Origin: an uncultured bacterium | GTDB lineage: Bacteria; UBP6; UBA1177; JAKLFG01 | Length of the DNA: 49,903 bases | NCBI GenBank assembly: GCA_937871295.1 | Contig: CALMRE010000044.1 | Span: forward strand, 1 to 49,903 | Direction: 5' to 3' | Shown: positions 33,514 through 49,748 of the stretch, one piece after another | How the letters are laid out: each line of letters begins with the position of its first letter | Position numbering within the stretch: the stretch's first letter is position 1 | Made by a program: the position numbers and the translations under genes | The notes under the pieces: generated by a model | The model's database searches: none | What the model saw: the letters and a program-made list of their open reading frames with translations, nothing else | Told to the model about the DNA's origin: nothing

Positions 33514-35238
33514 ATGATCAGCACCGGCGCTACGAAGAAGATCGAAAGCCTGATGGCACGGTACCCCAAAAAGGAATCGGCTTTGATGCCCGCCCTGATG
33601 ATCGTCCAGAAGGAGAACGGGAATGTTCTTTCAAAGGGCGATATCGAGGAGACGGCGAAGCTGATCGGCGTGACCGACGCGAAGGCCTTCGGCGTCGCGA
33701 CCTTTTACACCATGTACAATGTGAAGGAGAAGATCGGCAAGTACCACCTGCAGGTCGACACCAACATCCCGGCGACCCTCGCGGGGGCGAAGAAGATACT
33801 GGCATACATCGAGAAGAAACTGGGCATTAAGGCGGGGCAGACGACCGCCGACGGGCTCTTCACGCTTCACGAGGTCGAGTGTCTCGCCTCCTGCGGCACC
33901 TGCCCGGTCATTCAGGTCAACGACACCTACTACGAGAATCTGACCGTCAAGAAGGTCGACCTCCTCATCGAATCGCTGAAAAAGGGCGAGATGCCCGACA
34001 ATAAGGCCAGATCGAACTGGGGGAGCGCCTGCAATGTGCTCCTCAAGAACCGCGGCGTGAAGGATGCGGCGAAACTCTCGGTCTATAAAAGAAAAGGCGG
34101 TTACAAGGCGCTTGAAAAGGCGCTGACGATGGCCCCCGAGGCGATCGTCGCCGAGGTCAAGGAGTCGGGGCTCAAGGGGCGCGGCGGCGCCGGTTTCCCG
34201 ACCGGCACCAAGTGGGGTTTCCTGCCGAAGAACAACACCAATCCGGTCTATCTCATCTGCAACGCCGACGAGGGGGAGCCGGGGACCTACAAAGACCGCC
34301 AGATCATGGAATACGACCCGCATCTGCTCATCGAGGGGATGGCGATAGCGGCGCGCGCGCTCGGTTCGAAACTGGGCTTCATCTATATCCGCGGCGAATT
34401 CGACTGGATAGCCGATATCCTCGAGACGGCGATAGAAGAGGCGAAGAAGGGCGGTCAGCTCAAAGAGTTCGACATCATCGTCCACCGCGGCGCGGGCGCC
34501 TATGTCTGCGGCGAGGAGACGGCGCTCATCGAATCGATAGAGGGCAAACGGGGCCAGCCGCGCATGAAACCGCCCTTCCCGGCGGCGCAGGGGCTCTACG
34601 GCTGTCCGACCATCGTCAACAATGTCGAGACCTTCGCGAGCGTTCCGTTCATCATCGAGAAGGGGGCGGCCGAGTTCAAGAAGTTCGGTCCCGCCGAAAG
34701 CGCCGGGTTCCGTATCTTCGGCATCAGCGGCAATGTCAAGAAGCCGGGCGCCTACGAATACCCGATGGGGGTTTCCTTCAACGACCTCATCGCGGCGGCG
34801 GGCGGCGTTGACGGCGATCTCAAGGCGGCCATCGTCGGCGGCCTGTCGGTGGCCATCCTCAAGGCGGACGAACTGAAAGACCTCAATATGGACTACGCCT
34901 CGTGCGCTGCGAAGGGGACCGCGCTGGGTTCCGGCGGCGTCATGGTCATCAACGATACCTGGTCGATACCGGAGTTGGCCCTGCGCGCGATGAAGTTCTA
35001 CGCCCACGAATCGTGCGGCAAGTGTACGCCGTGCAAAGAAGGGTCGAAAATGACGGTCCGCGCGCTCCAGAAGATCGTGTCGGGGCAGGGGACCACAGAG
35101 GATCTCGCCAATGTCGAGCGGCTCGTGGGGACCATCAAAGGGCTCACCCTCTGCCCGGTCGGCGAGGCCTTCTCGGTGCCGATCCGCGCGATGGTCGAGA
35201 AGTTCCGCCCCGAATTCGAGGCGCTGATAAAACACTGA
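33514..35238 (+). CDS. NuoE-NuoF fusion, NADH-oxidoreducing subunit of a formate dehydrogenase
   Basis: 574 residues; two proteins normally separate are joined. Residues 1-155 are NuoE/HymA-like: C123 and C127 remain (ECLASC), but the first two Cys of the [2Fe-2S] site are D82 and A87. Residues ~165-574 are NuoF-like: FMN site GRGGAGFPTGTKW, NADH site RGAGAYVCGEETALIESIEG and a [4Fe-4S] site of C501, C504, C507 and C547. In NAD-dependent formate dehydrogenases these subunits pass electrons between FdhA and NAD. The next enzyme genes (ALDH, FdhA) support this. Its partner is probably the FDH at 37337. Confidence 0.92.
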   Translation: MISTGATKKIESLMARYPKKESALMPALMIVQKENGNVLSKGDIEETAKLIGVTDAKAFGVATFYTMYNVKEKIGKYHLQVDTNIPATLAGAKKILAYIEKKLGIKAGQTTADGLFTLHEVECLASCGTCPVIQVNDTYYENLTVKKVDLLIESLKKGEMPDNKARSNWGSACNVLLKNRGVKDAAKLSVYKRKGGYKALEKALTMAPEAIVAEVKESGLKGRGGAGFPTGTKWGFLPKNNTNPVYLICNADEGEPGTYKDRQIMEYDPHLLIEGMAIAARALGSKLGFIYIRGEFDWIADILETAIEEAKKGGQLKEFDIIVHRGAGAYVCGEETALIESIEGKRGQPRMKPPFPAAQGLYGCPTIVNNVETFASVPFIIEKGAAEFKKFGPAESAGFRIFGISGNVKKPGAYEYPMGVSFNDLIAAAGGVDGDLKAAIVGGLSVAILKADELKDLNMDYASCAAKGTALGSGGVMVINDTWSIPELALRAMKFYAHESCGKCTPCKEGSKMTVRALQKIVSGQGTTEDLANVERLVGTIKGLTLCPVGEAFSVPIRAMVEKFRPEFEALIKH

Positions 35239-35293: not shown

Positions 35294-35322
35294 TTGCAAG
35301 GTGACCGTTCCCGTGATATGAG
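35294..35322 (+). promoter_or_regulatory. possible promoter before the riboswitch-like leader of the aldehyde dehydrogenase
   Basis: TTGCAA (35294-35299), 17-base spacer, TATGAG (35317-35322). Predicted start ~20 bases before the leader element. The -10 is weak. Confidence 0.35.
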
Positions 35323-35349
35323 GATGGCCGTCGTTCTTTTACATCAACT

Positions 35350-35442
35350 CTCCGAGCCCGGGTTCCTGTAGCCGCTGTCGGTATGGATACCGGGACGATA
35401 AGGTATGGGGCGAAAGGCCCATGCCCCCTTTTGGAAAGGAGG
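35350..35442 (+). promoter_or_regulatory. Moco-riboswitch-like leader, divergent subtype (copy 1)
   Basis: Begins CTCCGAGCC, has TCCTGTAGCC, a stem capped by CGAAAG (ATGGG...CCCAT), and ends CCCTTTTGGAAAGGAGG. The skeleton matches the classical elements at 37165 and 46384. The AAAGGAGG at 35435-35442 is the ribosome site of the next gene and can pair with the first CTCC, so ligand-dependent hiding of the site (off switch) is inferred. Confidence 0.6.
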
Positions 35443-35447
35443 AATTC

Positions 35448-37079
35448 ATGACCAATGCTATCTTCAACCTGCCGGAATCCTACAATGAACCGACCTACGG
35501 CTATGCCCCCGGCACGAAAGAAAAGGCACTGCTGAAAGCGGAACTGAAAAAACAGTTCGAAGAGTGCATCGACATCCCGCTTATCATTGGCGGCAAAGAG
35601 CTCCGCACCGGAAAGACCCGGAATGTCGTCTGTCCCCACGACCACCGGCATGTTCTCGCGGTCTGCCACGAGGCCGGAGAGAGCGAAGTGCGCAGGGCGA
35701 TCGAAACGGCGCTGGCCGCCAAGCAACAATGGGAGAACACGCCGTGGGAGGACCGCGCGGCGGTGTTCCATCGGGCGGCAAGCCTCATCTCGGTAAAGTA
35801 CCGCTACATCCTCAACGCGGCGACGATGCTCGGCCAGTCGAAGAGCTGTTATCAGGCCGAGATAGACGCGACCTGCGAGACGGCCGATTTCTACCGCTAC
35901 AATGTCAAGTTCATGGAGCAGATCTACCGCAACCAGCCGATATCGGACCACCATGTGTGGAACCGGGTCCACTACCGGGCGCTGGAGGGGTTCGTTTATG
36001 CCGTGACGCCGTTCAATTTTACCGCCATCGGGGCGAATCTCCCCGCCGCGCCCGCCATCATGGGCAACACCGTCGTGTGGAAACCGGCATCCACTTCGCT
36101 CCTGTCCAATTACTATCTCATGCAACTCTACAAGGAGGCGGGGCTTCCCGACGGCGTCATCAACTTCGTACCGGGAAGCGGCGCGATGATATCGGGCATC
36201 GTGCTCGACGATCCGGCGCTCGCCGGGATACACTTCACCGGCTCGACCGGCGTGTTCAGATCGATGTGGCAGACGGTCGGCGCGAATCTTGCGAAATACC
36301 GCATCTATCCGCGACTCGTCGGCGAAACGGGCGGCAAGGACTTCATCTTTATGCACAACTCGGCCGATGTCGAAGAGGTGACGAGCGCCATTCTTCGTTC
36401 GGGGTTCGAATATCAGGGGCAGAAATGTTCCGCCTGTTCCCGGGTCTATGTGCCGCGCTCCCGATGGAAAGAAATGAGAGAAAGGCTGATCGTTCTGGTC
36501 GCGACCATCAAAGTGGGAGATGTGCTCGATTTCAGGAACTACATGAACGCGGTCATCGACGAGGCGAGTTTCGACAACACCATGCGGTATATCGATATCG
36601 CCCGCAAGTCGCCCGACGCGGAGATCGTCACCGGCGGCACCGGCGATAAATCGAAAGGCTATTTCATTCAGCCCACGATCATCGAGGCGAAGACGCCGCG
36701 CTTCATCACGATGGAGGAGGAGATATTCGCGCCGGTGGTGACGATATTCGTGTACGATGACGACAAGCTGGACGAAACCCTGAAACTGGTCGATTCGACC
36801 TCGCCCTATGCGCTGACGGGGGCGATCTTCGCGACGGATCGTCATGTGATCAACAAATTAAGCGACGCGCTTCCCAACGCGGCGGGCAACTTCTACATCA
36901 ACAACAAGCCGACCGGCGCGATGGTGGGGCATCAGCCGTTCGGCGGCGCCCGCGCCTCGGGCACCAACGATAAGGCGGGCAGTTTTCTCAACCTTATCCG
37001 CTGGACCAGTCCGCGCACGATCAAGGAATGCTTCACGCCGCCCCGGGTGTACGGCTACCCCTTCCTCGGCGAGGAATAA
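35448..37079 (+). CDS. pruA: L-glutamate gamma-semialdehyde (P5C) dehydrogenase-type aldehyde dehydrogenase
   Basis: 543 residues, the length of the ALDH4 (pruA/ALDH4A1) type. Rossmann and NAD features are clear (FNFTAIGANLPAAPAIMGN, HFTGSTGVF); the catalytic Glu is in LVGETGGKDF and the nucleophile is C327 in EYQGQKCSACSR. ALDH4 enzymes oxidise glutamate semialdehyde to glutamate with NAD+. The substrate-anchor segment (VGHQPFGGARASGTNDKAG) fits ALDH4. The gene sits between the formate dehydrogenase subunit genes and has its own Moco-riboswitch-like leader, odd for a flavin- and metal-free enzyme. Confidence 0.92.
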   Translation: MTNAIFNLPESYNEPTYGYAPGTKEKALLKAELKKQFEECIDIPLIIGGKELRTGKTRNVVCPHDHRHVLAVCHEAGESEVRRAIETALAAKQQWENTPWEDRAAVFHRAASLISVKYRYILNAATMLGQSKSCYQAEIDATCETADFYRYNVKFMEQIYRNQPISDHHVWNRVHYRALEGFVYAVTPFNFTAIGANLPAAPAIMGNTVVWKPASTSLLSNYYLMQLYKEAGLPDGVINFVPGSGAMISGIVLDDPALAGIHFTGSTGVFRSMWQTVGANLAKYRIYPRLVGETGGKDFIFMHNSADVEEVTSAILRSGFEYQGQKCSACSRVYVPRSRWKEMRERLIVLVATIKVGDVLDFRNYMNAVIDEASFDNTMRYIDIARKSPDAEIVTGGTGDKSKGYFIQPTIIEAKTPRFITMEEEIFAPVVTIFVYDDDKLDETLKLVDSTSPYALTGAIFATDRHVINKLSDALPNAAGNFYINNKPTGAMVGHQPFGGARASGTNDKAGSFLNLIRWTSPRTIKECFTPPRVYGYPFLGEE

Positions 37080-37134: not shown

Positions 37135-37164
37135 TCGCGATGTTCCCGTTCCTTAAATAATTAA

Positions 37165-37260
37165 ACCCCCGAGCCTTCGATCCTACAGCGTTATGCCACG
37201 GTCGAAGGCCAATGGGCCGATACCGAAAGGTTACGGCCTCCCGCTTTGGAAAGGAGGTGC
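37165..37260 (+). promoter_or_regulatory. Moco riboswitch, classical form (before first FDH)
   Basis: CCCCCGAGCC, TCCTACAGC, then stem GGCCGATACC-GAAA-GGTTACGGCC with internal loop, CTCCC, TTTGGAAAGGAGG. This agrees with the Moco RNA motif as I remember it (GNRA-capped CCGAAAGG stem and GGAAAGGAGG end). Known members control Mo-enzyme, moa and transport genes. The start codon of fdhA is a further ~75 bases downstream, with its own GGAGGAG. Confidence 0.85.
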
Positions 37261-37336
37261 CTGTGGTTCCGGTCTTTTCCCCTGTACTCTCGAAATCATC
37301 GTCAAGTGGTCATACATTATTTCATCGGAGGAGCGC

Positions 37337-40021
37337 ATGAAGCTTATCATTAACGGAAAAGAGATCGTTGCCCAGCCCGGCATGACCGTGCTGGAGGCGG
37401 CGAAGGCCGGCGGGATCTACATCCCGTCGCTCTGTTATCATCCCCGCACCGGACAGGCCGGCAAATGCCGCGTCTGTGTCGTGGAGGTCGAAGGGATGCG
37501 CGGACTTCAGGTGTCTTGCAATTTGAAAGTGCAGGACGGAATGTCGGTGAAGACCAAGACCCCGCAGGTGCTTGCGGCGCAGAAACTGGTGGTCGACCTT
37601 CTGCTCGCGACGGGCAAACATGACTGTATCGCCTGCGAAAGCAACGGCAAGTGCGAACTGCAGGATGCCGCCTATTATCTGGGCATCGAACGCGCTCCTT
37701 TCAAGTATGACGACATCCATTACGCGGAAGGGGACAAGAGCGCTCCCTTCGTCCGGCTCGACAAGGACAAATGCATCTCCTGCGGCCGTTGTGTGGTGGC
37801 CTGCAATAATCAGGTGGTCAACGAGGTGCTTGATTTTGCCCAACGCGGATACCGGACCGAGATCGTCTGCGACGACGACAAGCCGATGGGCGATTCGTCC
37901 TGCGTCCAGTGCGGCGAATGTTCGCAGGTCTGTCCGGTCGGCGCTATCGTCGATGTGAAATCGGTCGGCAAGGCCCGTTCATGGGAAACAAAGGTCGTCC
38001 GCACCACCTGTCCGTACTGCGGCGTCGGCTGTCAGTTGGATCTCCATATGAAAGGCGATCAGATCGTGCAGGTCACCGGCACCGAAGAGGGGAGCCCGAA
38101 CAAAGGTAAGTTGTGCGTCAAGGGCCGTTACGGCTACGATTTCATCTATGCCGAGGACCGTCTGACCCATCCGCTCATCAAAGAGAACGGCGAGTTCAGA
38201 AAGGCGTCGTGGGACGAGGCGATCAACCTCGTCGCGTCGAAATTCAAGGAGGCCATCGACAAGTACGGTCCCGATTCGGTCGCCGGCGTGAGTTGCGCCC
38301 GCAGTATCAATGAAGACTCCTACAATATGCAGAAACTGTTCCGTGGGGTGTTCAAGACCAACAACATAGACCACTGCGCACGAACTTGACACGCCCCCAC
38401 GGTGGCCGGTCTGGCTGCCTCCTTCGGCTCGGGCGCGATGACCAACTCGTTCGGCGAGTTCGCAAAGGCGAAACTGATGCTCTGCATCGGGACCAACATG
38501 ACCGAGGCGCATCCGGTCGCCTCCTATTATGTCAAGCAGGCGGTGAAGAACGGCATGACCCTCATCGTCGCCGATCCGCGTAAACAGCGGCTGGTGAAGT
38601 ACGCGGAGCTGTTCGCGCAACTCAAGGTCGGCACCGATGTCGCCTTCCTCAACGGGCTCATGAATGTCCTTATCACCGAAGACCTCTACGATAAGGAATT
38701 CGTGGAAAAGAACTGCTCCGACTTCGACAAACTGAAAGAGACCGTCCTGAAATATACCCCGGAATACGCGGCGAAGATATGCGGCGTCGAACCGGAGATC
38801 ATCAGGAAGATCGCCCGAAAGATGGCGAGCGTGAAGCCGGGGGCGGTGTGCTACACGCTCGGCATCACCGAACACACCTGCGGCAAGAACAATGTCATGA
38901 GCGTCGCCAACCTGCAGATGCTGCTGGGCAACCTCGGCGTCGAATGCGGCGGCGTCAATCCGCTCCGTGGCCAGAACAATGTGCAGGGTGCGTGCGACAT
39001 GGGCGCTCTGCCCAATGTGTTCCCCGGCTATCAGAAGGTCGTCGATCCCGCCGCGCGCGAGAAATTCGAGAAGGCGTGGGGCGTTACCGGCCTTCCCGAT
39101 AAGAACGGGCTCATGATCCCCGACATGATGGCTGGTCTCGCCTCCAAGAAGGTCCGTGCCTTCTGGATATTCGGCGAGAATCTCGCCAATTCGGAACCGG
39201 ACATCCGCCATGTCGAGCATGAACTCGAATCGGCCGAATTCATCGTGGTGAACGACATTTTCCCCAACGAGACGACGAAGTTCGCCGATGTCATCTTCCC
39301 CGCCGCCGCATGGTGCGAGGATGAGGGGACCTTCACCAGCAGCGAACGCCGCGTCAACCGGGTGCGTAAGATCAAGGATGCGCCCGGCGAGGCGAAGCCG
39401 AACTGGTGGGTGTTCCAGCAGGTGGCCAAGGCGTTCGGTCAGGAATGGCCGTCGAACAGCGGCCCGGAGATATGGGACAACGAGGTTTCGAAACTGGCCC
39501 CGGCGCTCGGCGGCATAAAGTACGTGAGGATAGAGAAAGACGGCCTGCAGTGGCCCTGTCCGACCGCCGAGCATCCCGGCACCACCTTCCTGCACAAGGA
39601 GGGGAAGTTCACGCACGGAAAGGGTATATTCAAGGCGGTCGAGTGGACGCCGCCCGCCGAGGTGGAGGATGCCGAATATCCGTTCGTGCTCAGCACCGGC
39701 AGACGCCTTTCGCAGTACCACACCAGAACGCAGACCGGCAGGGCCGGCATGGATGCGATCTACAAGCGGGAGACCGCCGATATGTCGCCCGCCGACGCCG
39801 AGCGGCTCGGTATCAAGAACGGCGAGATCGTGCTGGTCAAATCGCGCCGCGGCGAGGTCAGGGTCCCGGCCCGCGTGACCGAAGAGGTGCCCAAGGGAAT
39901 GGTGTGGATGACCTTCCATTTCCGGGAAGGGAACGCCAACTGGCTCACCAACACCGCCTACGATCCCGAGACCCGGACGGCCGAATACAAGGCCTGCGCC
40001 GTCAATGTCGTCAAGTTGTGA
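37337..40021 (+). CDS. fdhA: selenocysteine formate dehydrogenase, catalytic subunit (first copy)
   Basis: 894 residues with one in-frame UGA (38387-38389) at codon 351, in the context NNIDHCART-U-H, the usual place of Sec in formate dehydrogenase. N-terminal NuoG-like part: [2Fe-2S] C33, C44, C47, C61; H95/C97/C100/C106; two ferredoxin clusters (C146-C156, C189-C199). Catalytic bis-molybdopterin part: CPYCGVGC [4Fe-4S] (C225, C228, C232, C260), Sec351, and molydopterin-binding C-terminus. It oxidises formate or reduces CO2. With the NuoEF fusion it forms an NAD-linked enzyme. The ATG at 37337 has GGAGGAG. Confidence 0.97.
38387..38419 (+). other. Sec UGA and bacterial SECIS hairpin
   Basis: UGA at 38387; hairpin GGTGGCC (38401-38407)/GGCTGCC (38413-38419) with apical loop GGTCT (38408-38412). 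The GGTCT begins 21 bases from the UGA, as in E. coli fdhF, whose loop has the same sequence. SelB binding is expected. Confidence 0.9.
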
Positions 40022-40074
40022 TCCTATTCACCCGGTCATGATATAAAGGTTTACATCGTTCTTTGACATTGACA

Positions 40075-40170
40075 ACTCCGATCCCGGGTTCCTGTAGCCA
40101 ATATCGGTATGGATACCGGGGCGATAGGGTATGGGGCGAAAGGCCCATGCCTCCCTTTTGGAAAGGAGGA
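40075..40170 (+). promoter_or_regulatory. Moco-riboswitch-like leader, divergent subtype (copy 2, before porin/mod operon)
   Basis: Nearly the same as the element at 35350: CTCCGATCCCGG, TCCTGTAGCC, GGTATGGATACCGGG, TATGGGGCGAAAGGCCCATG, CTCCCTTTTGGAAAGGAGG. It ends in the ribosome site of the porin gene, six bases before the ATG. No clear promoter of its own is seen in the 53 bases before it; read-through from fdhA is possible. Confidence 0.6.
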
Positions 40171-40175
40171 TTCTC

Positions 40176-41411
40176 ATGATCACGGTATCACGGAAGCTGT
40201 TGGCTTCCGTCGTGGTGTTCGGCGCGCTCGCCCTCGGGGCGCAGGAGACACCGGTCAAGGAAGAGGTTAAGAAAGAGTCGCGGAAAGAGGAGTCGTCGGT
40301 GCCCGATTGGGTTAAAAAGTTGGAGATCAAAGGGGACTTTCGATTCCGTTACCAGTACCAGAATTTCGAGGATGCGGTACAGGACGACACGCTGGAGCGC
40401 AATCGCCTTCTCTACCGCGCCCGGATCGGCCTCGACGCGGAGGTCAACGACTGGGCGAAGGTTCATTTCGGCATCGCATCCGGTTCGGCCGAAACGAAGA
40501 TATCGGAGAATATGCCGACACAGGCGCTCGGACAGGATGCCCGCACCTCCAATCAACCCTTCGACGATTTCTTCAGTCGCAAACCGCTCTGGATCGATCA
40601 TGCCTACGGGGAGATATCGCCGTGGAGTTGGCTGACCATCATGGGGGGCAAGATGAAGAATCCCCTGCATACCGCTTCGCAGTTGCTGTGGAGCGCCGAG
40701 GTTAATCCGGAGGGGGCCGCCGTCACCTTCGCCTACCCGATCATCGACGAATTGACGATCCTTGCCGATGCCGCCATTCTTGTTCTTGACGAGATAAAGG
40801 CGCTTGACGACCCTCTGCTGGCGGTGGCGCAGGTGGGGGCGGCGGTCACGGTGGACGATTTCGACGGGAAATTCGTGATCGGATACTACGACCCCATGTA
40901 TCTATACAACGCCGACAGCAACACCGCGCATGCACTGGAGATAAAAAAACTTATCCGGGAAGGCTATTATTGGAAAAATATTCAGGCGCTTTTCAATGTC
41001 GCCTATACCTTGGAAAAGAAATACCAGATCGGCCTTTTCGGTGAGATGACGGCAAATCTTTACGAGTTCAACGAAGAGGCTCCGTTGGGTGAAAAGGCCG
41101 ACGAAACATTGGCATGGCTCGTCGGGGCGAAGGGAGGCACCAAGGCGCTCAAGGATCTCGGCGATTTTCAATTGACGCTCGGCTATCGTCAGGCCGGTAT
41201 CGCTTCGTGGCTACCGCTTTTCAGCGAGCCGGTCGTTTTCAACGGAAAATTAAACGGAGAAGGGATCGACTTCAACGGGCAGGTCGGTTTTTACAAAGGA
41301 CTGTCGGCCGCCGTGACATTCAACTACTTCTGGACCAAGAATGCCGAATTCAACGCCGGCGAGACGGACAGCGATATCATCTTCATGCTCGATATGAACT
41401 ATAAGTTTTGA
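40176..41411 (+). CDS. putative outer-membrane porin of a molybdenum operon
   Basis: 411 residues: signal peptide (LLASVVVFGALALGAQ), short charged linker, then an amphipathic beta-rich domain with alternating aromatic residues (GDFRFRYQYQNFEDAV, VHFGIASGSAET, FTFNYFWTKN-like near the end) and a final strand DIIFMLDMNYKF ending in Phe, as outer-membrane beta-barrels do. The family looks like a 'putative porin' class. It heads the modA-DUF364-modB-modC-fmdE-fdhD run and shares its riboswitch-like leader, so I infer oxyanion or Mo/W import across the outer membrane. Confidence 0.8.
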   Translation: MITVSRKLLASVVVFGALALGAQETPVKEEVKKESRKEESSVPDWVKKLEIKGDFRFRYQYQNFEDAVQDDTLERNRLLYRARIGLDAEVNDWAKVHFGIASGSAETKISENMPTQALGQDARTSNQPFDDFFSRKPLWIDHAYGEISPWSWLTIMGGKMKNPLHTASQLLWSAEVNPEGAAVTFAYPIIDELTILADAAILVLDEIKALDDPLLAVAQVGAAVTVDDFDGKFVIGYYDPMYLYNADSNTAHALEIKKLIREGYYWKNIQALFNVAYTLEKKYQIGLFGEMTANLYEFNEEAPLGEKADETLAWLVGAKGGTKALKDLGDFQLTLGYRQAGIASWLPLFSEPVVFNGKLNGEGIDFNGQVGFYKGLSAAVTFNYFWTKNAEFNAGETDSDIIFMLDMNYKF

Positions 41412-41446
41412 GTGATGCTATGCGTGCACAACACGAGGAAAAAGTC

Positions 41447-42220
41447 ATGAAATATCGTTTTATGCTTCTTGCTCTCGCGTTCCTTTCTTTACTGCCGGGA
41501 TTTTCCTGTGCGAACAAAGGAACTGCCGCCGAACTGGCCGTGTCGGCCGGCGCGAACTTCACCGATGTGCTGAAAGAGTGCGCCGCGCTGTACGAGGCGG
41601 AGCATCCCGGCGCGAAGATCGTGCTGAATTTTGCCTCGACCGGGGTCGTTGCCCAGCAGATCATCGCCGGGGCGCCGGTCGATGTCTTTTTCTCCGCGAC
41701 GGAGAAACACGCGGAGATGGTCGCCGCCAAAGGGCTGGCCGTCGAAGGCTCGCGGAGGACCTTCCTTTCCAACGAGATAGTCGTGATAACGAGAAAAGGT
41801 CTGCGACACACGCTGTCCGACCCGGCGGGACTTCTTGCCGACGCGGTCAAGATCGTTGCGTTGGGCAGTCCGGAGAATCTCGCCGCGGGTATCGCCGCGA
41901 AGGAGGCGTTGGCCTTTCACGGTATTCATGAGAAGGTCGCGGAGAAAGCCGCCTACGGGGAAACGGTGCGGCAGGTCCTCGATTATGTCGTTCGCGGCGA
42001 GGCCGACGCGGGGATAGTGTTTTATACCGATTATCTGATAGCGAAAGAAAAGGTGGATCTCGCCTACACCTTTTCAAAAGAGTCCCATCGGCCGATCATC
42101 TATCCGGTCCTTGCCGTTACAGGCCGTCCGAACGAGCAAAAGGCGCTGGAATTCGTAGAGTTCCTTTCCTCGGAAAAGGCAAAGGGGATATTTACACGAT
42201 ACGGCTACCGGTTCCTGTGA
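41447..42220 (+). CDS. modA: molybdate/tungstate-binding lipoprotein ModA
   Basis: 257 residues from the ATG at 41447 (GAGGAAAAAG upstream). Lipobox PGFSC, then the ModA pattern: ELAVSAGANFTDVLKECAALYE, FASTGVVAQQIIAGAPVDVFFSA (oxyanion site), then GEADAGIVFYTDY. It binds molybdate or tungstate in the periplasm and hands it to ModBC. Which metal cannot be told from the residues seen. Confidence 0.95.
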   Translation: MKYRFMLLALAFLSLLPGFSCANKGTAAELAVSAGANFTDVLKECAALYEAEHPGAKIVLNFASTGVVAQQIIAGAPVDVFFSATEKHAEMVAAKGLAVEGSRRTFLSNEIVVITRKGLRHTLSDPAGLLADAVKIVALGSPENLAAGIAAKEALAFHGIHEKVAEKAAYGETVRQVLDYVVRGEADAGIVFYTDYLIAKEKVDLAYTFSKESHRPIIYPVLAVTGRPNEQKALEFVEFLSSEKAKGIFTRYGYRFL

Positions 42221-42240
42221 TGCTTTCGAGGGAAGGTAAG

Positions 42241-43008
42241 ATGCGCGACAATGCGATACTGACCGAAGCGGTCGTCAGGCTGAAAAAGATGCTGACGGCC
42301 GATCAACCGCTCCTCGACCTGCGCATATCGGTACGGGCCGTCTGTCTGACCCCGGAGGAGGCGATAGGAAATCCGATGCGGAGGGATTATCCGATCATCG
42401 AGGGGAAAGAGCGGGTCATTGAGGCTACCGTACTGCACAGCAAGGGACAGGCGTTCACCGATGACCCCGGCGAGTTCACCGGCACCGTGCAGGAGATATT
42501 CGATCTCGATCTCTCGTCCAACCGGAACCGCGCCATCGTCATCGCCGCGATGAACGCCCTGCTTGGTCATCGCGGACTGGTCGACGGCACCGTTCATTGC
42601 AGAAATGAAGACCCGGAAAAATGTTCGAAAGAGATAGCCCTCCATATTTTCGAGAAATTCGGCCGTGTCACGGTGGGATTGATCGGTCTGAATCCGGCGC
42701 TGTTGGAAGCGCTCGCGAACACCTTCGGCGCGGAACGGGTCCGCGCAACCGATCTCAACCGGAAGAACATCGGAACCGTCAAATACGGCGTCGAGATAGG
42801 GGACGGTCGCGAACGGACCGAGGATATGGTCCGTTCATCGGATATCCTTCTGATCACCGGGACCACGCTGGTGAACGGCACCCTCGACGGTATTTTGGAT
42901 CTTGTCGCCCGCTACGGGAAGAACTATCTGCTGTACGGCACGACCATTGCCGGCGTCGCCCGGCTCAGGGGACTCGACCGTATCTGTCCGTATGCGAGGA
43001 ACGGTTGA
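42241..43008 (+). CDS. DUF364/DUF4213 Rossmann-like, putative heavy-metal chelation protein
   Basis: 255 residues from the ATG at 42241 (GAGGGAAGG upstream); a GTG/ATG at 42217-42220 is possible. The domain order fits DUF4213 followed by DUF364: IIEGKERVIEATVLHSKGQAFT, VIAAMNALL, VTVGLIGLNPALLEALAN and LLITGTTLVNGTLDGILDL. DUF364 proteins are described as putative metal-chelation proteins but have no proven function. Here it lies between modA and modB and its stop overlaps the modB start (TGATG), which ties it to molybdate or tungstate handling. Confidence 0.82.
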   Translation: MRDNAILTEAVVRLKKMLTADQPLLDLRISVRAVCLTPEEAIGNPMRRDYPIIEGKERVIEATVLHSKGQAFTDDPGEFTGTVQEIFDLDLSSNRNRAIVIAAMNALLGHRGLVDGTVHCRNEDPEKCSKEIALHIFEKFGRVTVGLIGLNPALLEALANTFGAERVRATDLNRKNIGTVKYGVEIGDGRERTEDMVRSSDILLITGTTLVNGTLDGILDLVARYGKNYLLYGTTIAGVARLRGLDRICPYARNG

Positions 43009-43670
43009 TGGGCGCGATCTCCTTTCCCTTGATCCTTTCGCTCAAGGTCGCCCTGTGCGCCACCTTTCTGGCCGCTCTTTTCGGTATCGCGGTCGGCTAT
43101 TTCATCTATGCGCGGCACTTCGCCGGGAAGGAGATACTGGATACGCTGATCACCGTTCCGCTCGTACTGCCGCCTACCGTGACCGGCTTGTACCTGATGT
43201 ATGTGTTCGGCAGGAACGGGCTTATCGGGTCTTTTATCTACGACCTCACCGGCATGTCGATCATGTTCTCGTGGCAGGCCGCCGTATTGGCCTCCTTCGT
43301 CGTCGCCGTACCGATAACCTTCAAGACCACCCGGACCGCCTTCGAGGCGGTCGACAAGAATCTCATAGAGATATCTTATGTGTTGGGGAAGAGCGAGAGC
43401 AAGACCTTTTTCACCATCATTTTTCCCCTCGCGTGGAAAGGTATCGCGTCGGGCCTCGTGCTTGCCTTCGCGCGGGCGCTGGGCGAATTCGGCGCGACCT
43501 TGATGCTGGCGGGAAATATTGAGGGGAAAACGAACACCGTGCCGCTCACGATTTATTCTCTGGCGACATCGGGAAAAGAATACGAGGCCCATATCCTCGC
43601 CCTGATCTTCACGGTTTTCTCCTTTGTGTTTCTCTATACGGTGAAAAAACTGGGGCACCGGCATGCTTGA
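43008..43670 (+). CDS. modB: molybdate ABC transporter permease ModB
   Basis: 220 residues with six membrane segments. The EAA loop is FARALGEFGATLMLAGN, specific for ModB/WtpB/TupB-like permeases. PLVLPPTVTGLYLM is also typical of ModB. Start overlaps the DUF364 stop; stop overlaps modC by eight bases. Confidence 0.95.
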   Translation: MGAISFPLILSLKVALCATFLAALFGIAVGYFIYARHFAGKEILDTLITVPLVLPPTVTGLYLMYVFGRNGLIGSFIYDLTGMSIMFSWQAAVLASFVVAVPITFKTTRTAFEAVDKNLIEISYVLGKSESKTFFTIIFPLAWKGIASGLVLAFARALGEFGATLMLAGNIEGKTNTVPLTIYSLATSGKEYEAHILALIFTVFSFVFLYTVKKLGHRHA

Positions 43671-44385
43671 GGCGAAACTGGTCCGCACCTTTAAGAATTT
43701 TTCTCTGGATGTCGATTTCAAGGTGGGAAAAGGGGTGAACATCTTTTTCGGTTTCTCGGGATGCGGCAAGACGATCACCCTGCGGATGCTCGCCGGTCTG
43801 GACCGGCCCGACAGCGGTCAGATAAAGACCGGCGGGAAGACGATCTTCGACAGCGCGCAAAAGATAGATGTCCGGCCGCAGCATCGGCGCATCGGCTATG
43901 TGCCGCAGCAGCCGTCGCTCTTTCCGCATATGAGCGTCGAGCGCAACATCCGGTACGCCGCGGACGCTTTGTCCCCGGAGGAGCGGAAGGAAACGCTGGA
44001 ACACCTGCTCGAGATATTCAGATTGAAAGAGCTGCGGAGCCGTTTTCCCCATCAACTTTCGGGCGGTCAGAAACAGCGGGCGGCGGTGGCGCGGGCGGTG
44101 GCTTCGAAGCCGGCCTATCTCCTGCTCGACGAACCGTTCAGTTCCCTCGACAGCCTCATCCGGCGGAAGATGTGCCGCTGCATAACCCATTCGGTGTACG
44201 AAAAACTCGGCATACCGATCATCATGGTGACCCACGATGCGACCGAGACGCTCGATTTCGACCAGCTCTTTGTCTTTTCAAACGGGCGGATCGTCAAAAG
44301 CGGCCCGCCGAAAGAACTGAAGCCTCTGCTCGCCGAGATGCTGGGGCCGTTGCGCTTCGACAATCCGTTCACCGGCGAAAAATAA
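43663..44385 (+). CDS. modC: molybdate ABC transporter ATPase ModC (short)
   Basis: 240 residues. Walker A GFSGCGKT, ABC signature LSGGQKQRAAVARA, Walker B LLLDEPFSSLD and H-loop VTHDATE are present. The ~110-residue C-terminal MOP/TOBE domain of E. coli ModC is missing, so no feedback oxyanion binding by this subunit is expected. Energises import with ModB. Confidence 0.95.
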   Translation: MLEAKLVRTFKNFSLDVDFKVGKGVNIFFGFSGCGKTITLRMLAGLDRPDSGQIKTGGKTIFDSAQKIDVRPQHRRIGYVPQQPSLFPHMSVERNIRYAADALSPEERKETLEHLLEIFRLKELRSRFPHQLSGGQKQRAAVARAVASKPAYLLLDEPFSSLDSLIRRKMCRCITHSVYEKLGIPIIMVTHDATETLDFDQLFVFSNGRIVKSGPPKELKPLLAEMLGPLRFDNPFTGEK

Positions 44386-44403
44386 CCACGAGGGAGTAGT
44401 GTC

Positions 44404-45000
44404 ATGAGTGCGAATTTGAATGAAACGCTCATTTGCGGCCATCCGCTTGAAGAGTACGAGGCGATGATCGAAAAGTTCCACGGCAACCGGGCGCCCGGCT
44501 TGATCATCGGCGGTTTCATGGTCGATCTGGCGCAGAAGAATCTGCCGAAAGGGGAACTGTTCGATGTGATCTGCGAATCGATGAAATGCCTGCCCGATGC
44601 GGTGCAGGTGCTTACCCCCTGTTCCATCGGCAACGGCTGGCTCAAGATACTCAAGATCGGCAGATTTGCGTGCACCTTCTTCGACAAACATACCGGCGAC
44701 GGGGTGCGGGTCTATCTCGATACCGATAAGATGAAGAACTATCCCGAGATATACAACTGGTTCTTCAAGGTGACCCCGAAGCATGAACAGGACGGAGAGG
44801 CGCTGATGAGACAGATCAGGTCGGCGGGGGCGGCGATCCTGTCCGTAGAGAAAGTGAAGGTCGATCCCGAGATATCCAAAAAAGAAAAGGGCTCCAAGAT
44901 CGCCGTCTGTCCGGTCTGCAACGAAGGCTACCCGGCGAAGCACGGTGAAAAATGCCGCATTTGCAGCGGAGAGATAAACTATCTGATGAAGAGCTCATGA
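44404..45000 (+). CDS. FmdE-like protein
   Basis: 198 residues; FmdE domain followed by a C-terminal zinc ribbon (CPVCNEGYP...CRICSG). The N-terminal FmdE motif, usually FHGHxCPG, is FHGNRAPG, so the Cys/His metal ligands are lost, while the second motif (CLPDAVQVLTPCSIGNGWL) is present. FmdE proteins were named for formylmethanofuran dehydrogenase but are common next to molybdate transport and formate dehydrogenase genes; role unproven. Starts 18 bases after modC and overlaps fdhD (ATGA). Confidence 0.87.
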   Translation: MSANLNETLICGHPLEEYEAMIEKFHGNRAPGLIIGGFMVDLAQKNLPKGELFDVICESMKCLPDAVQVLTPCSIGNGWLKILKIGRFACTFFDKHTGDGVRVYLDTDKMKNYPEIYNWFFKVTPKHEQDGEALMRQIRSAGAAILSVEKVKVDPEISKKEKGSKIAVCPVCNEGYPAKHGEKCRICSGEINYLMKSS

Positions 45001-45827
45001 TGAAGAGCGCCGCGATAAAGGAAGATTTTCCCGTCGTGCAGTTCGATACCGGCGGGGTCGAGGTGAAATTGTGGGAAGAGACCAAGTCGGTGGTCGGCGA
45101 GATATCTCTGAAGATCATGATCAACGGCGTCGATTATGCTTCTCTGTTGTGTGTCAATCAGTTCCAGAAAGAGATGGCGCTTGGTTTTCTCTACAATGAA
45201 GGGGTCATAAACGGTTGGTCCGATGTCAAGAACATCGATTTCAACGAAGGTCACTTTACGGTCGCGGTCGAACTGAACGAACGGCTGAATCTCACTGTGG
45301 GCGATAGTTTCAGGAGCGTGACATCGGGCTGCGGGAAATGTTACACCTACATCAAGCCGACCTATCGCGATCTGTATGTCGCGAACACCTCCGATAGCCG
45401 TTATGAATTGAAGAGGATAACGGACCTGATGAAAGAATTCAATCGGGAGCCGCCTATCTTTAATGCGTTCGGCGGGGTGCATGCGGCCAAATATGTCGGG
45501 GAGGGTTTCAGCGTGCTGGTCGAAGATATCGGCAGGCATAATTGCATAGACAAGATCGCGGGTATTCTGCTGTCGGAAGGGAAGGGGAGGTCGGGGGGGA
45601 TGATGCTGGTGAGCGGCAGGATATCTTCCGAGATCGTTACCAAGATCGTGCGGATGGGCGTTCCCCTGATCGCTTCCCGCTCCACGCCGACCATTCCCGC
45701 GCTCAAACTCGCGGAGCAGTACGGTATCACGCTGCTCGGGTATGTCCGTGAAGGGCGCGGGGTGATATATGCCGGGAAAGAGCGTATCGAAGAGGTTTTT
45801 CGGATGTCGGACCCGAATAAGAACTAA
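44997..45827 (+). CDS. fdhD: formate dehydrogenase sulfurtransferase FdhD
   Basis: 276 residues. The conserved TSGCGKC motif holds the cysteines that carry sulfur in this family, usually seen as CGxC. The Rossmann-like second half has AAKYVGEGFSVLVEDIGRHN and MMLVSGRISSEIVTKI. FdhD moves sulfur from IscS to the molybdenum cofactor of formate dehydrogenases and is needed for their activity. It ends the riboswitch-led operon and precedes the second FDH. Confidence 0.96.
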   Translation: MMKSAAIKEDFPVVQFDTGGVEVKLWEETKSVVGEISLKIMINGVDYASLLCVNQFQKEMALGFLYNEGVINGWSDVKNIDFNEGHFTVAVELNERLNLTVGDSFRSVTSGCGKCYTYIKPTYRDLYVANTSDSRYELKRITDLMKEFNREPPIFNAFGGVHAAKYVGEGFSVLVEDIGRHNCIDKIAGILLSEGKGRSGGMMLVSGRISSEIVTKIVRMGVPLIASRSTPTIPALKLAEQYGITLLGYVREGRGVIYAGKERIEEVFRMSDPNKN

Positions 45828-45846: not shown

Positions 45847-46302
45847 ATGAACGGATCGGTCTACAGAAAAACACTGGTGATGGCGGTGAGCAACGAGATC
45901 GAGGCCCACGATTTCTACGAGGCGGCGGCGGCCAAGACCGCCAACAAGGCGCTGAAGTCGATCTTCGTGGAACTGGCGGGCGAGGAGTTGAAGCACAAAC
46001 TCCTGCTCGAATCGTTCCTTGCCGACGGCGGCAAAAAACTGCAGTTCGCCGAAACGGCCGACTACAAGATCTCCGAGACGGTGGAACTGCCGAAACTGAC
46101 CGTCGGGATGAGTTTCGTGGAGGCCATTGCGCTGGCCATGAAGAAAGAGGAAGAGGCGATGAAGATGTACCGCAAATTCGCCGACGCCAGTTCTTCCCCC
46201 GAGCAGAAGGAGACCTTCCTCCAACTCGCCCGGATGGAGCAGGGACATAAGGCCCGGCTGGAGGCGCTCTATACCGACACCGCATACGCCGAGGCGTGGT
46301 GA
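45847..46302 (+). CDS. ferritin-like (rubrerythrin-type) diiron protein, copy 1
   Basis: 151 residues, four-helix bundle with metal ligands in NEIEAHDFYEAAAAK, AGEELKHKLLLE, KKEEEAMKMYRKFA and RMEQGHKARLE, i.e. paired E..ExxH motifs. No rubredoxin domain. GAAGGAGG site. Expected to bind a diiron centre and detoxify peroxide or oxygen. It lies between fdhD and the second FDH; a close paralogue lies on the other side of that FDH. Confidence 0.9.
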   Translation: MNGSVYRKTLVMAVSNEIEAHDFYEAAAAKTANKALKSIFVELAGEELKHKLLLESFLADGGKKLQFAETADYKISETVELPKLTVGMSFVEAIALAMKKEEEAMKMYRKFADASSSPEQKETFLQLARMEQGHKARLEALYTDTAYAEAW

Positions 46303-46363: not shown

Positions 46364-46383
46364 CCTTTTGCTTTGTTTTTCAT

Positions 46384-46476
46384 CCCCCGAGCCTTTCGAC
46401 CTACGGCAGGGCGCTATGGTCGAAGGCCAATGGGTCGCTACCGAAAGGTTACGGCCTCCCGTTCGGAAAGGTGGTG
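46384..46476 (+). promoter_or_regulatory. Moco riboswitch, classical form (before second FDH)
   Basis: CCCCCGAGCC, CCTACGGC, GGTCGCTACC-GAAA-GGTTACGGCC stem, CTCCCGTTCGGAAAGGTGG, close to the copy at 37165. Between it and the ATG, AGGTC (46481-46485) can pair with GACCT (46506-46510), which would cover the GGAGG of the gene. An alternative GTGA/TCAC hairpin (46474-46477/46484-46487) excludes that pairing, a plausible expression platform. Confidence 0.82.
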
Positions 46477-46511
46477 ATGTAGGTCACTAGTTTCAGAACG
46501 GAGGCGACCTC

Positions 46512-49193
46512 ATGCAGATCACGATCAACGGAAAGATCGTCGAGGCCCAAGCGGGGCAGACCATCCATCGGGCGGCCAAGGCGGCCGGTATCTACATCCC
46601 GACGCTGTGTTACCATGAAAAGGTCGGCGCGGCCGGCAAATGCCGCGTCTGCGTCGTCGAGATCGAAGGAAGCCCCGCGCTCCAGACCGCCTGTTCGGTC
46701 GAGGTGCGCGAGGGAATGAAGATCCAGACGCGGACCGAGCGGGTACTCAACTCACAGAAACTGATCGTCGACCTGCTCCTTTCGACCGGCACCCACGACT
46801 GCCTCGCCTGCGACCAGAACGGCTCCTGCGAACTGCAGGATGTCGCCTACTATCTGGGCATGGAGCGCGGATCGTTCAAGTACGCCGATGTCGAGAGCGT
46901 GAAAGACGACAGTTCCGAATTTATTTCGGTCGAGCGGAGTAAATGCATTTCCTGCGGCCGCTGCGTCGCGGCGTGCAACAACACGGTGACCAACCGCGTG
47001 CTTGATTTCAAATACCGCGGTCACAAGGCCGACATCGCCTTCGACGACGACAAGCCGATGGGCGAATCCTCCTGCGTGCAGTGCGGCGAATGCGCCCAGA
47101 TCTGTCCGGTGGGGGCGCTTACCGACAAACTTTCCAAAGGCAGGGCGCGTCGCTGGGATGTCGAGAAGGTCTATTCGGTCTGTCCCTACTGCGGCGTCGG
47201 CTGCAAACTGGAACTCCATGTCGACCGCAAGACCGACCGGATCGTCCGCGTCACCGGCGCCGAGGGTGCCCCGACCAATAACGGGATGCTCTGCGTCAAG
47301 GGTCGCTACGGCTACGATTTCGTCGGTCATCCCGACCGCCTGACCACCCCGCTCATCAAGGAGAACGGCAAGTTCCGCGAAGCGTCGTGGGACGAGGCGA
47401 TAACGCTGGTCGCGACCAAATTCGCCGAGATAAAGCAGAAGCACGGCGCCGACACCATCATGGGGCTCTGCTCGGCGAAGGTGACCAACGAAGAGAACTA
47501 CACCTTCCAGAAACTGTTCCGCACGGGGATCGGCACCAACAACATTGACCACTGCGCACGACTCTGACACTCCTCCACGGTGGCCGGTCTGGCTGCCTCC
47601 TTCGGTTCGGGCGCAATGACCAACGACATCGCCGGTCTGGACAAGAGCGATGTGGCTCTCATCATCGGTTCCGATACCTCCGAATGTCATCCGGTCATCG
47701 CCGCGCGTCTCAAAAAAGCGGCGATGGACGGCAAGGTGAAGATCATCGTCATCGATCCCAAGCGGATCAAGATGGCCGATTTCGCGACCATCTACGCTTG
47801 CCAGCGGCCCGGCACCGATGTCGCGGTCCTCAACGGCATGATGCATCTCATCATCAAGAACGGCTGGGAGGACAAGAAGTTCATCGAAGAGCGTACCGAG
47901 GGGTACGAGGCGCTCAAGGAAGAGGTCGCCAAGTTCACCCCCGAGTATGTCGAGAAGATATCGGGCATCCCCGCCAAGACGCTTGAGGAGATCGCCGAGT
48001 TGTTCGGCAAGGCCCCGACGGCGGCGCTCTACTACGCGATGGGGATCACCCAGCACACCACCGGCGTCGACAATGTCAAGTCGACCGCGAACCTTCAGAT
48101 GCTCTGCGGCAACATGGGCAAGGTGGGCGGCGGCGTCAATCCTCTGCGCGGCCAGTCCAATGTGCAGGGCGCCTGCGACATGGGCGGCCTTCCCAATGTA
48201 TTCCCCGCCTATCAGAAGATCGGCGATGCCGCGGTGCAGGAAAAGTTCGAGAAATTCTGGGGCGTGAAACTGAGCGACAAACCGGGCATGACCATGACGG
48301 TCGCCTTCGACAAGGCCCACGCGGGTGAGATGAAGGCGTTCTACATCATGGGCGAGAACCCGATGGTATCGGACCCCGACCTCCATCACGCCGAAGAATC
48401 GCTGAAGAGACTTGAGTTCCTCGTCGTGGAGGATATCTTCATGACCGAAACGGCGCAGATGGCCCATGTCGTTCTCCCGGCCTCGTCGCCCGCCGAGAAG
48501 GACGGCACCTTCAGCAACACCGAACGGCGCGTTCAGCTTCTGTTCAAGGCGGTGAACGCCCCCGGTCAGGCGAAGCACGACTGGGAGATCCACCAGATGA
48601 TCGCCAATAAGATGGGACTCAACTGGAACTACACGAAGGCCGAAGAGATCTTCGATGAGATGCGGAAGTGCACCCCCTCCTACGCGGGGCTGACCTACAA
48701 GCGGCTCGGTTTCGCCGGTATGCACTGGCCCTGCCCGAACGAGGAGCATCCCGGTACGCCGGTCCTTCACATCGGCAAGTTCTCCCGCGGGCTCGGGCTG
48801 TTCACGGCCATCCCGTTCAAGGAACCGGCCGAGATGCCCGACAAGGACTATCCGTGGTATTTCACCACCGGGCGCGTCCTTCAGCAGTACCACACCGGCA
48901 CCATGTCGCGCAAGACCCCGGGGCTCAACAACCTCGCCGGTCCCCATGTCATGATATCGGTGGAGGACGCCGAGGCGCTCGGCATATCCAACAGCGGCAA
49001 GGTCAAGGTCTCGACGCGGCGCGGTTCGCTGATCACCAACGCCTTTGTGACCAAGCGCTGTCCGAAGGGAACGGTGTTCATGCCCTTCCACTTCGCCGAA
49101 GCGGCGGCGAACAAACTGACCATCAACGCGCTCGATCCGATCGCGAAGATACCGGAATACAAGGTCTGCGCCTGCAAGATAGAAAAGGCGTAG
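46512..49193 (+). CDS. fdhA: selenocysteine formate dehydrogenase, catalytic subunit (second copy)
   Basis: 893 residues with an in-frame UGA (47565-47567) at codon 352, context NNIDHCARL-U-H. Same domain order as the first copy: NuoG-like [2Fe-2S] (CYHEKVGAAGKCRVC), His-Cys3 cluster (HDCLACDQNGSC), two ferredoxin clusters (CISCGRCVAACN, CVQCGECAQICP), CPYCGVGC cluster and the molybdopterin domains. The two proteins are similar but diverged through the C-terminal half. No NuoE/F gene accompanies this copy; it may share the fusion at 33514 or use a different acceptor. It is flanked by two ferritin-like genes and followed by selC. Confidence 0.97.
47565..47597 (+). other. Sec UGA and SECIS hairpin of the second FDH
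   Basis: UGA at 47565; stem GGTGGCC (47579-47585)/GGCTGCC (47591-47597) with loop GGTCT (47586-47590), 21 bases after the UGA. The hairpin is identical to that of the first copy. Confidence 0.9.
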
Positions 49194-49225
49194 CGGAGAA
49201 CATCAACCGATAAGGGAGTATGTCC

Positions 49226-49672
49226 ATGGATATGATCAAGATACTGCGGATGGCGGTGAACAACGAGGTCGAGGCGCACGATTTCTACGATGGCGCGGCG
49301 GCCAAGACCACCAACAAGTCGCTGAAGTCGATCTTCGTGGAACTGGCGGGCGAGGAGCTGAAGCATAAACTCCTGCTCGAATCATTCCTTGCCGACGGCG
49401 GAAAGAAACTGCACTTTGCCGAAACGACCGACTACAAGATCGCGGAAACGGTGGAGCTGCCGAAACTGACCGTCGGGATGAGTTTCGTGGATGCCATCGC
49501 GCTGGCCATGAAGAAAGAGGAAGAGGCGATGAAGATGTACCGCAACTTCGCCGACGCCAGTTCTTCCGCCGAGCAGAAGGAGATGTTCACCCAACTCGCC
49601 CGGATGGAGCAGGGGCACAAGGCCCGCCTTGAAACGCTCTACACCGACACCGCCTTCGTCGAGGCGTGGTAG
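49226..49672 (+). CDS. ferritin-like (rubrerythrin-type) diiron protein, copy 2
   Basis: 148 residues, about 85% identical to the copy at 45847 with all metal ligands kept (NEVEAHDFYDGAA, GEELKHKLLLE, KKEEEAMKMYRNFA, RMEQGHKARLE). The ATG at 49226 suits the GGGAG site better than the one at 49220. It starts 32 bases after the second FDH stop, so the two are probably cotranscribed. Inferred role: protection of an oxygen-sensitive enzyme, or iron supply. Confidence 0.9.
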   Translation: MDMIKILRMAVNNEVEAHDFYDGAAAKTTNKSLKSIFVELAGEELKHKLLLESFLADGGKKLHFAETTDYKIAETVELPKLTVGMSFVDAIALAMKKEEEAMKMYRNFADASSSAEQKEMFTQLARMEQGHKARLETLYTDTAFVEAW

Positions 49673-49737: not shown

Positions 49738-49748
49738 CATGAACGATT

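Follow-up and report, generated by a model that had tools for sequence, protein, structure and literature searches.

We found that the ALDH4-type aldehyde dehydrogenase (ALDH) gene in the window (the whole stretch of DNA analysed, 49,903 nucleotides) follows a riboswitch of the Moco/W class, and comparison across its order suggests that the enzyme is probably a cofactor-independent backup for aldehyde oxidoreductase (AOR), controlled by a P3-less tungsten-cofactor riboswitch and made when the cofactor is scarce. For the broader reading, that a W-cofactor riboswitch regulon swaps W-dependent AOR for NAD-dependent ALDH4/ALDH7 under tungsten shortage and was recruited more than once, we put the chances at about even. 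As the sequence-only reading had it, the gene lies between those for NuoEF and FdhA, and the features of the region are as follows.

33514–35238, + strand: NuoE–NuoF fusion, upstream of ALDH (Pfam)
35338–35456, + strand: Moco/W-class riboswitch without P3, the ALDH leader, with P1 formed by CTCC (35350–35353) paired with GGAG (35438–35441) (RF01055, 52.3 bits)
35437–35442, + strand: Shine–Dalgarno sequence AGGAGG of ALDH, overlapping the 3′ strand of P1 (sequence)
35448–37079, + strand: ALDH4-type L-glutamate gamma-semialdehyde (P5C) dehydrogenase, 543 aa (TIGR01236, PDB 4idm/3v9j, residues)
37155–37273, + strand: Moco/W-class riboswitch of fdhA1, with a separate gene Shine–Dalgarno about 70 nt past P1 (RF01055, 61.8 bits)
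37263–37340, + strand: possible upstream ORF of 25 aa with a GTG start after the P1 Shine–Dalgarno (sequence only)
37337–40021, + strand: FdhA1, Sec-type formate dehydrogenase with an in-frame TGA at 38387 (read-through of TGA)
40066–40183, + strand: Moco/W-class riboswitch of the porin/uptake operon (RF01055, 58.2 bits)
40176–45827, + strand: uptake and maturation genes for a porin (PF16930), ModA, DUF364, ModB, ModC, FmdE and FdhD
46373–46489, + strand: Moco/W-class riboswitch of fdhA2 (RF01055, 58.8 bits)
46512–49193: fdhA2, a second Sec-type FdhA, with TGA at 47565

The genome has five Moco/W riboswitches, four in the window (all on the + strand) and one on contig C134, and a tRNA-Sec is found at 49748 of the window. 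The Porin_5 family porin (40176–41411) heads the ModA–DUF364–ModB–ModC–FmdE–FdhD genes under its riboswitch, the DUF364 gene (putative heavy-metal chelation; 42238–43008) lying between modA and modB, and two closely similar rubrerythrin-like proteins (45847–46302 and 49220–49672) flank fdhA2.

The match of the ALDH leader to RF01055 (Rfam cmscan) spans the whole model, positions 1–135, and exceeds the gathering score of 36 with an E value of 9.4e-10; the gene behind it scores 770.3 bits on TIGR01236, for which the equivalog cut-off is 613.6, and a Moco-riboswitch-like leader on a P5C/ALDH4-type gene is thus borne out. The start codon (ATG, 35448) follows six bases past P1, and from these coordinates P1 overlaps the ribosome site, placing the leader to hide it as had been proposed from the sequence. 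In Regulski et al. (2008; PMC2408646), a Shine–Dalgarno sequence within P1 is the repressing layout for the Moco/W class, and aptamers lacking P3 are tied to the tungsten cofactor by correlation only. The P3 columns of the RF01055 alignment are deleted in all four window aptamers, the ALDH leader included, and a short joint takes the place of P3 in 18 of 18 aligned aptamers of the order; going by these sequences, the ALDH riboswitch most likely senses the tungsten cofactor. The same 18 aptamers show compensatory changes on both sides in 12 of 20 helix pairs, with a covariation score of 0.525, compared with 0.208 for shuffles and no more than 0.199 for slid controls. Free folds predicted for the ALDH leader likewise pair part of the Shine–Dalgarno sequence, which counts against the backup reading and means that folding alone is no proof of a switch. 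A consensus promoter was sought before the ALDH leader and none was found; one precedes the fdhA1 leader, promoter matches being no more numerous than in shuffles.

The closest PDB entries to the enzyme are the P5C dehydrogenases 4idm and 3v9j. It has the active-site residues Cys327, Glu293, Ser328 and Gly490–Ala491, keeps the QKCS and GETGGK motifs that carry the catalytic Cys and Glu, and its KPTGA, which binds the semialdehyde carboxylate, matches that of the Mtb P5C dehydrogenase 4idm. This retention of P5C-type positions counts against a role as backup for AOR. With Holophagaceae (Geothrix) genes the window ALDH shares 75% identity, compared with about 64% for genes from a different family within its order, a pattern suggestive of horizontal transfer.

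Comparison of leader layouts over the 18 aptamers of the order revealed two arrangements. The six ALDH leaders, without exception, and the porin leader carry the Shine–Dalgarno sequence of their gene inside P1, whereas the AOR leaders (3/3; genomes G001, G004 and G022) and both fdhA leaders of the window have a separate one 24–70 nt past P1. The ALDH leader has the same layout as the porin leader and is 88.6% identical to it over 123 nt; the ALDH aptamer is only 53–54% identical to the fdhA aptamers. Layout and identity together group ALDH, as far as riboswitch control can be predicted from sequence, with uptake and not with the cofactor-using enzymes. ON-type control of fdhA2, by pairing of its Shine–Dalgarno sequence with aptamer CCUCCCGUUC in the free fold, was considered and dropped; shuffles of the flank reach this pairing in 268 of 2000 cases, so such control is not claimed. 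No significant anti-Shine–Dalgarno was found in the fdhA1 and AOR leaders.

Four genomes also carry Asp-rich lipoproteins and a TonB-dependent receptor behind Moco/W riboswitches (L006 1570–7242; L105 10896–16342; L111 11223–14365; L109 1676–4361), and in G002 and G004 the lipoprotein is alone behind the riboswitch, at a contig end. These genes may form an outer-membrane system for the uptake of tungstate or molybdate. Their leaders likewise hold the gene's own Shine–Dalgarno sequence inside P1 in G018 and G022, and in the window's family, represented by four genomes, it is a short upstream ORF that follows the P1 Shine–Dalgarno. Short upstream ORFs of this kind were seen at 37263–37340 of the window, where the stop overlaps the fdhA1 start, and in the L105 and L107 lipoprotein leaders; in some leaders they end at the start or the Shine–Dalgarno sequence of the main gene, suggesting translational coupling.

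Within the order, the riboswitch lies directly on ALDH4 in G000, G001, G002 and G015, and on an ALDH7–ALDH4 pair in G018 and G022 (the latter being MAG RA.bin111, locus L013), where the ALDH7 partner passes the cut-off for L-piperidine-6-carboxylate dehydrogenase. A survey of ALDH4 genes for this leader had been suggested as a check. We found AOR (PF01314) encoded in all six of these genomes, whereas none of the 15 genomes with ALDH and without AOR had the riboswitch on ALDH; as these 15 are nearly all from one genus, the Fisher value of 2e-5 for the association is confounded and overstates the evidence. In a further three genomes AOR was found and ALDH was not; two of these are incomplete. 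No strong riboswitch match was present at 79 ALDH4 loci outside the order, drawn from many phyla, so that among 80 ALDH4 loci the only strong riboswitch match by ALDH was at L013, of this order; Rfam scans of part of the 80 agree with this count. Similarly, of 22 riboswitches from outside the order, none lies ahead of an ALDH gene.

The AOR gene is itself behind a riboswitch in G001, G004 and G022, in a cluster that includes moeA/moaA, TonB genes and, in G001 and G022, ALDH. The AOR copy of G000 on C28, which has a readable 5′ end (L154 1–1984), lacks an aptamer that is present at the same place in the relatives G001 and G004, and we count this against the backup reading; a second G000 copy is truncated at the end of its contig (C62).

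The neighbours of ALDH bear on whether the switch might work in the opposite direction, ALDH being made when cofactor is abundant and acting with FdhA and NuoEF so as to link semialdehyde oxidation to formate or hydrogen production. NuoEF and FdhA do flank ALDH in the window, and NuoEF–HydA hydrogenase genes follow the ALDH pair in G018 and G022. However, the Shine–Dalgarno sequence is in P1 in all six ALDH leaders, the leader is common to the uptake operon, and no fdhA relative was found near ALDH on the 20 kb stretch of G001, where ALDH is beside AOR and TonB genes, or on the short contigs that carry it in G002 and G015. We regard an ON switch as improbable. The sequence-only reading had offered a link to formate redox balance as its second alternative; the flanking genes agree with it in the window, but the arrangement with fdhA is not kept elsewhere in the order, and a formate-specific role was therefore set aside as the main reading. 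The first alternative, substitution for AOR, is the one that we favour, and it is analogous to the B12 riboswitch on metE. It has a difficulty of its own in the same neighbourhood, in that the adjacent FdhA would lack activity under the same shortage of W.

In an ALDH4 tree (built by a quick method, with SH-aLRT support only), the genes of G000, G001, G002 and G015 fall in one clade with Holophagaceae genes, at whose loci no riboswitch was found, and those of G018 and G022 fall in another with the riboswitch-less genus. The aptamers on ALDH are of three types: that of family f1, which is like the uptake leaders; that of G015, most like fdhA2 (81%); and those of G018 and G022, 84% alike and next like the G022 AOR aptamer (71–74%). 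Two clades and three aptamer types mean that recruitment was probably repeated, the sequences suggesting two or three events, and part of the pattern could be due to replacement of the gene while the leader was retained. The 88.6% identity of the ALDH and porin leaders would also fit a chance duplication, in which the porin leader was copied onto ALDH and the control has no function. This seems very unlikely, as three genomes of the family retain riboswitch-ALDH and different aptamers are found on the two ALDH4 clades elsewhere in the order.

With regard to substrate, no PF00171 gene besides ALDH was found in the window's genome, so no ProA enzyme was found either. The sequence-only reading had described pruA-like enzymes as part of proline catabolism; for the window ALDH this does not apply, since proline dehydrogenase (PF01619) is absent from 25 of 25 genomes of the order (the control was positive in 8 of 14). 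The P5C reductase dimer domain is absent from all eight genomes tested. The absence of matches to proline dehydrogenase, P5C reductase or ProA in G000 also bears on its proline supply. Ornithine aminotransferase passes its cut-off in each of the six riboswitch-ALDH genomes and falls below it in both riboswitch-less genomes tested, and is the likely source of glutamate semialdehyde. Taken with the missing matches, this implies that oxidation should be the main fate of ornithine-derived semialdehyde. If ALDH is repressed in W-replete cells then another oxidiser would be needed there, for which AOR is a candidate. The G022 AOR is nearest by sequence, among solved structures (PDB), to the W-dependent Aromatoleum AOR, which oxidises many aldehydes and doubles an NAD-linked dehydrogenase in that organism (PMC6365974). 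A tungsten enzyme for a semialdehyde has been proposed earlier, with glutaric semialdehyde for archaeal FOR.

The specificity of P5C dehydrogenases is not strict. It could be, then, that ALDH simply clears aldehydes left by failed molybdo- and tungsto-enzymes under scarcity, without replacing AOR in a defined pathway, and the leader type shared by ALDH and the uptake genes would fit this. We consider it unlikely, because riboswitch-ALDH co-occurs with ornithine aminotransferase and AOR and because the ALDH7 partner belongs to a second specific semialdehyde family.

The mechanism that we propose for a backup of AOR is that binding of the W-cofactor would close P1 over the Shine–Dalgarno sequence and block ALDH4 translation. 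Under scarcity of the cofactor or of tungstate, P1 would open, and ALDH would be made together with the uptake genes whose leaders share its layout. Using only NAD+, it would take over the aldehyde oxidation carried out by W-dependent AOR in W-sufficient cells, with glutamate semialdehyde from ornithine as the prime candidate substrate and aminoadipate semialdehyde as an additional candidate where the ALDH7 partner is present. The earlier proposal of a substitute for a Mo/W aldehyde oxidoreductase is thus well supported by comparative evidence (the repressing layout and AOR in six of six genomes each, riboswitch-AOR in three and probably repeated recruitment), from which we infer the ligand, the direction of regulation and a substrate common to ALDH and AOR. 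If this is correct, amino-acid semialdehydes derived from ornithine and lysine are substrates of W enzymes here, which would give a handle on tungsten-enzyme roles in these anaerobes, and a gene expected to rise only without W-cofactor would be a clean readout for the assignment of P3-less aptamers to tungsten.

Among known systems, the window ALDH resembles the P5C dehydrogenases PruA/RocA (ALDH4; PDB 4idm, 3v9j) in matching the family over its full length and in its active-site positions; the window genome differs in lacking proline dehydrogenase, and translation of its ALDH is predicted to be under W/Mo-cofactor control. In Aromatoleum aromaticum, phenylacetaldehyde dehydrogenase and W-AOR provide a precedent for an NAD-linked enzyme and a tungsten enzyme sharing one aldehyde (PMC6365974), although no riboswitch is mentioned there and both the dehydrogenase and the substrate differ from those of ALDH4. 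The Moco/Tuco riboswitch (RF01055) is the same aptamer class, with P3-less forms, Shine–Dalgarno sequences in P1 and, as in the window, uptake genes among its targets. The known targets named in its description (PMC2408646) are cofactor synthesis, transport and cofactor-using enzymes, whereas the target here needs no Mo or W. No cofactor-independent isozyme is named for the Moco class in the available parts of PMC2408646 and PMC3766115, within the open-licence literature, and such a target would, if confirmed, be of a kind not found there. The closest parallel is the B12 riboswitch on metE and other B12-independent isozymes, for which the logic is the same (PMC3766115, PMC11260477): sensing of a cofactor represses the isozyme that does without it. 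The aptamer class, cofactor and enzymes are different, and the exchange of isozymes is established for B12 whereas for ALDH4 and AOR it is predicted from the comparisons above. As with metE, a cofactor-dependent enzyme of the same chemistry, AOR, is encoded in all six riboswitch-ALDH genomes, and the backup reading would bring metE-type logic from B12 to the Moco/W riboswitch class.
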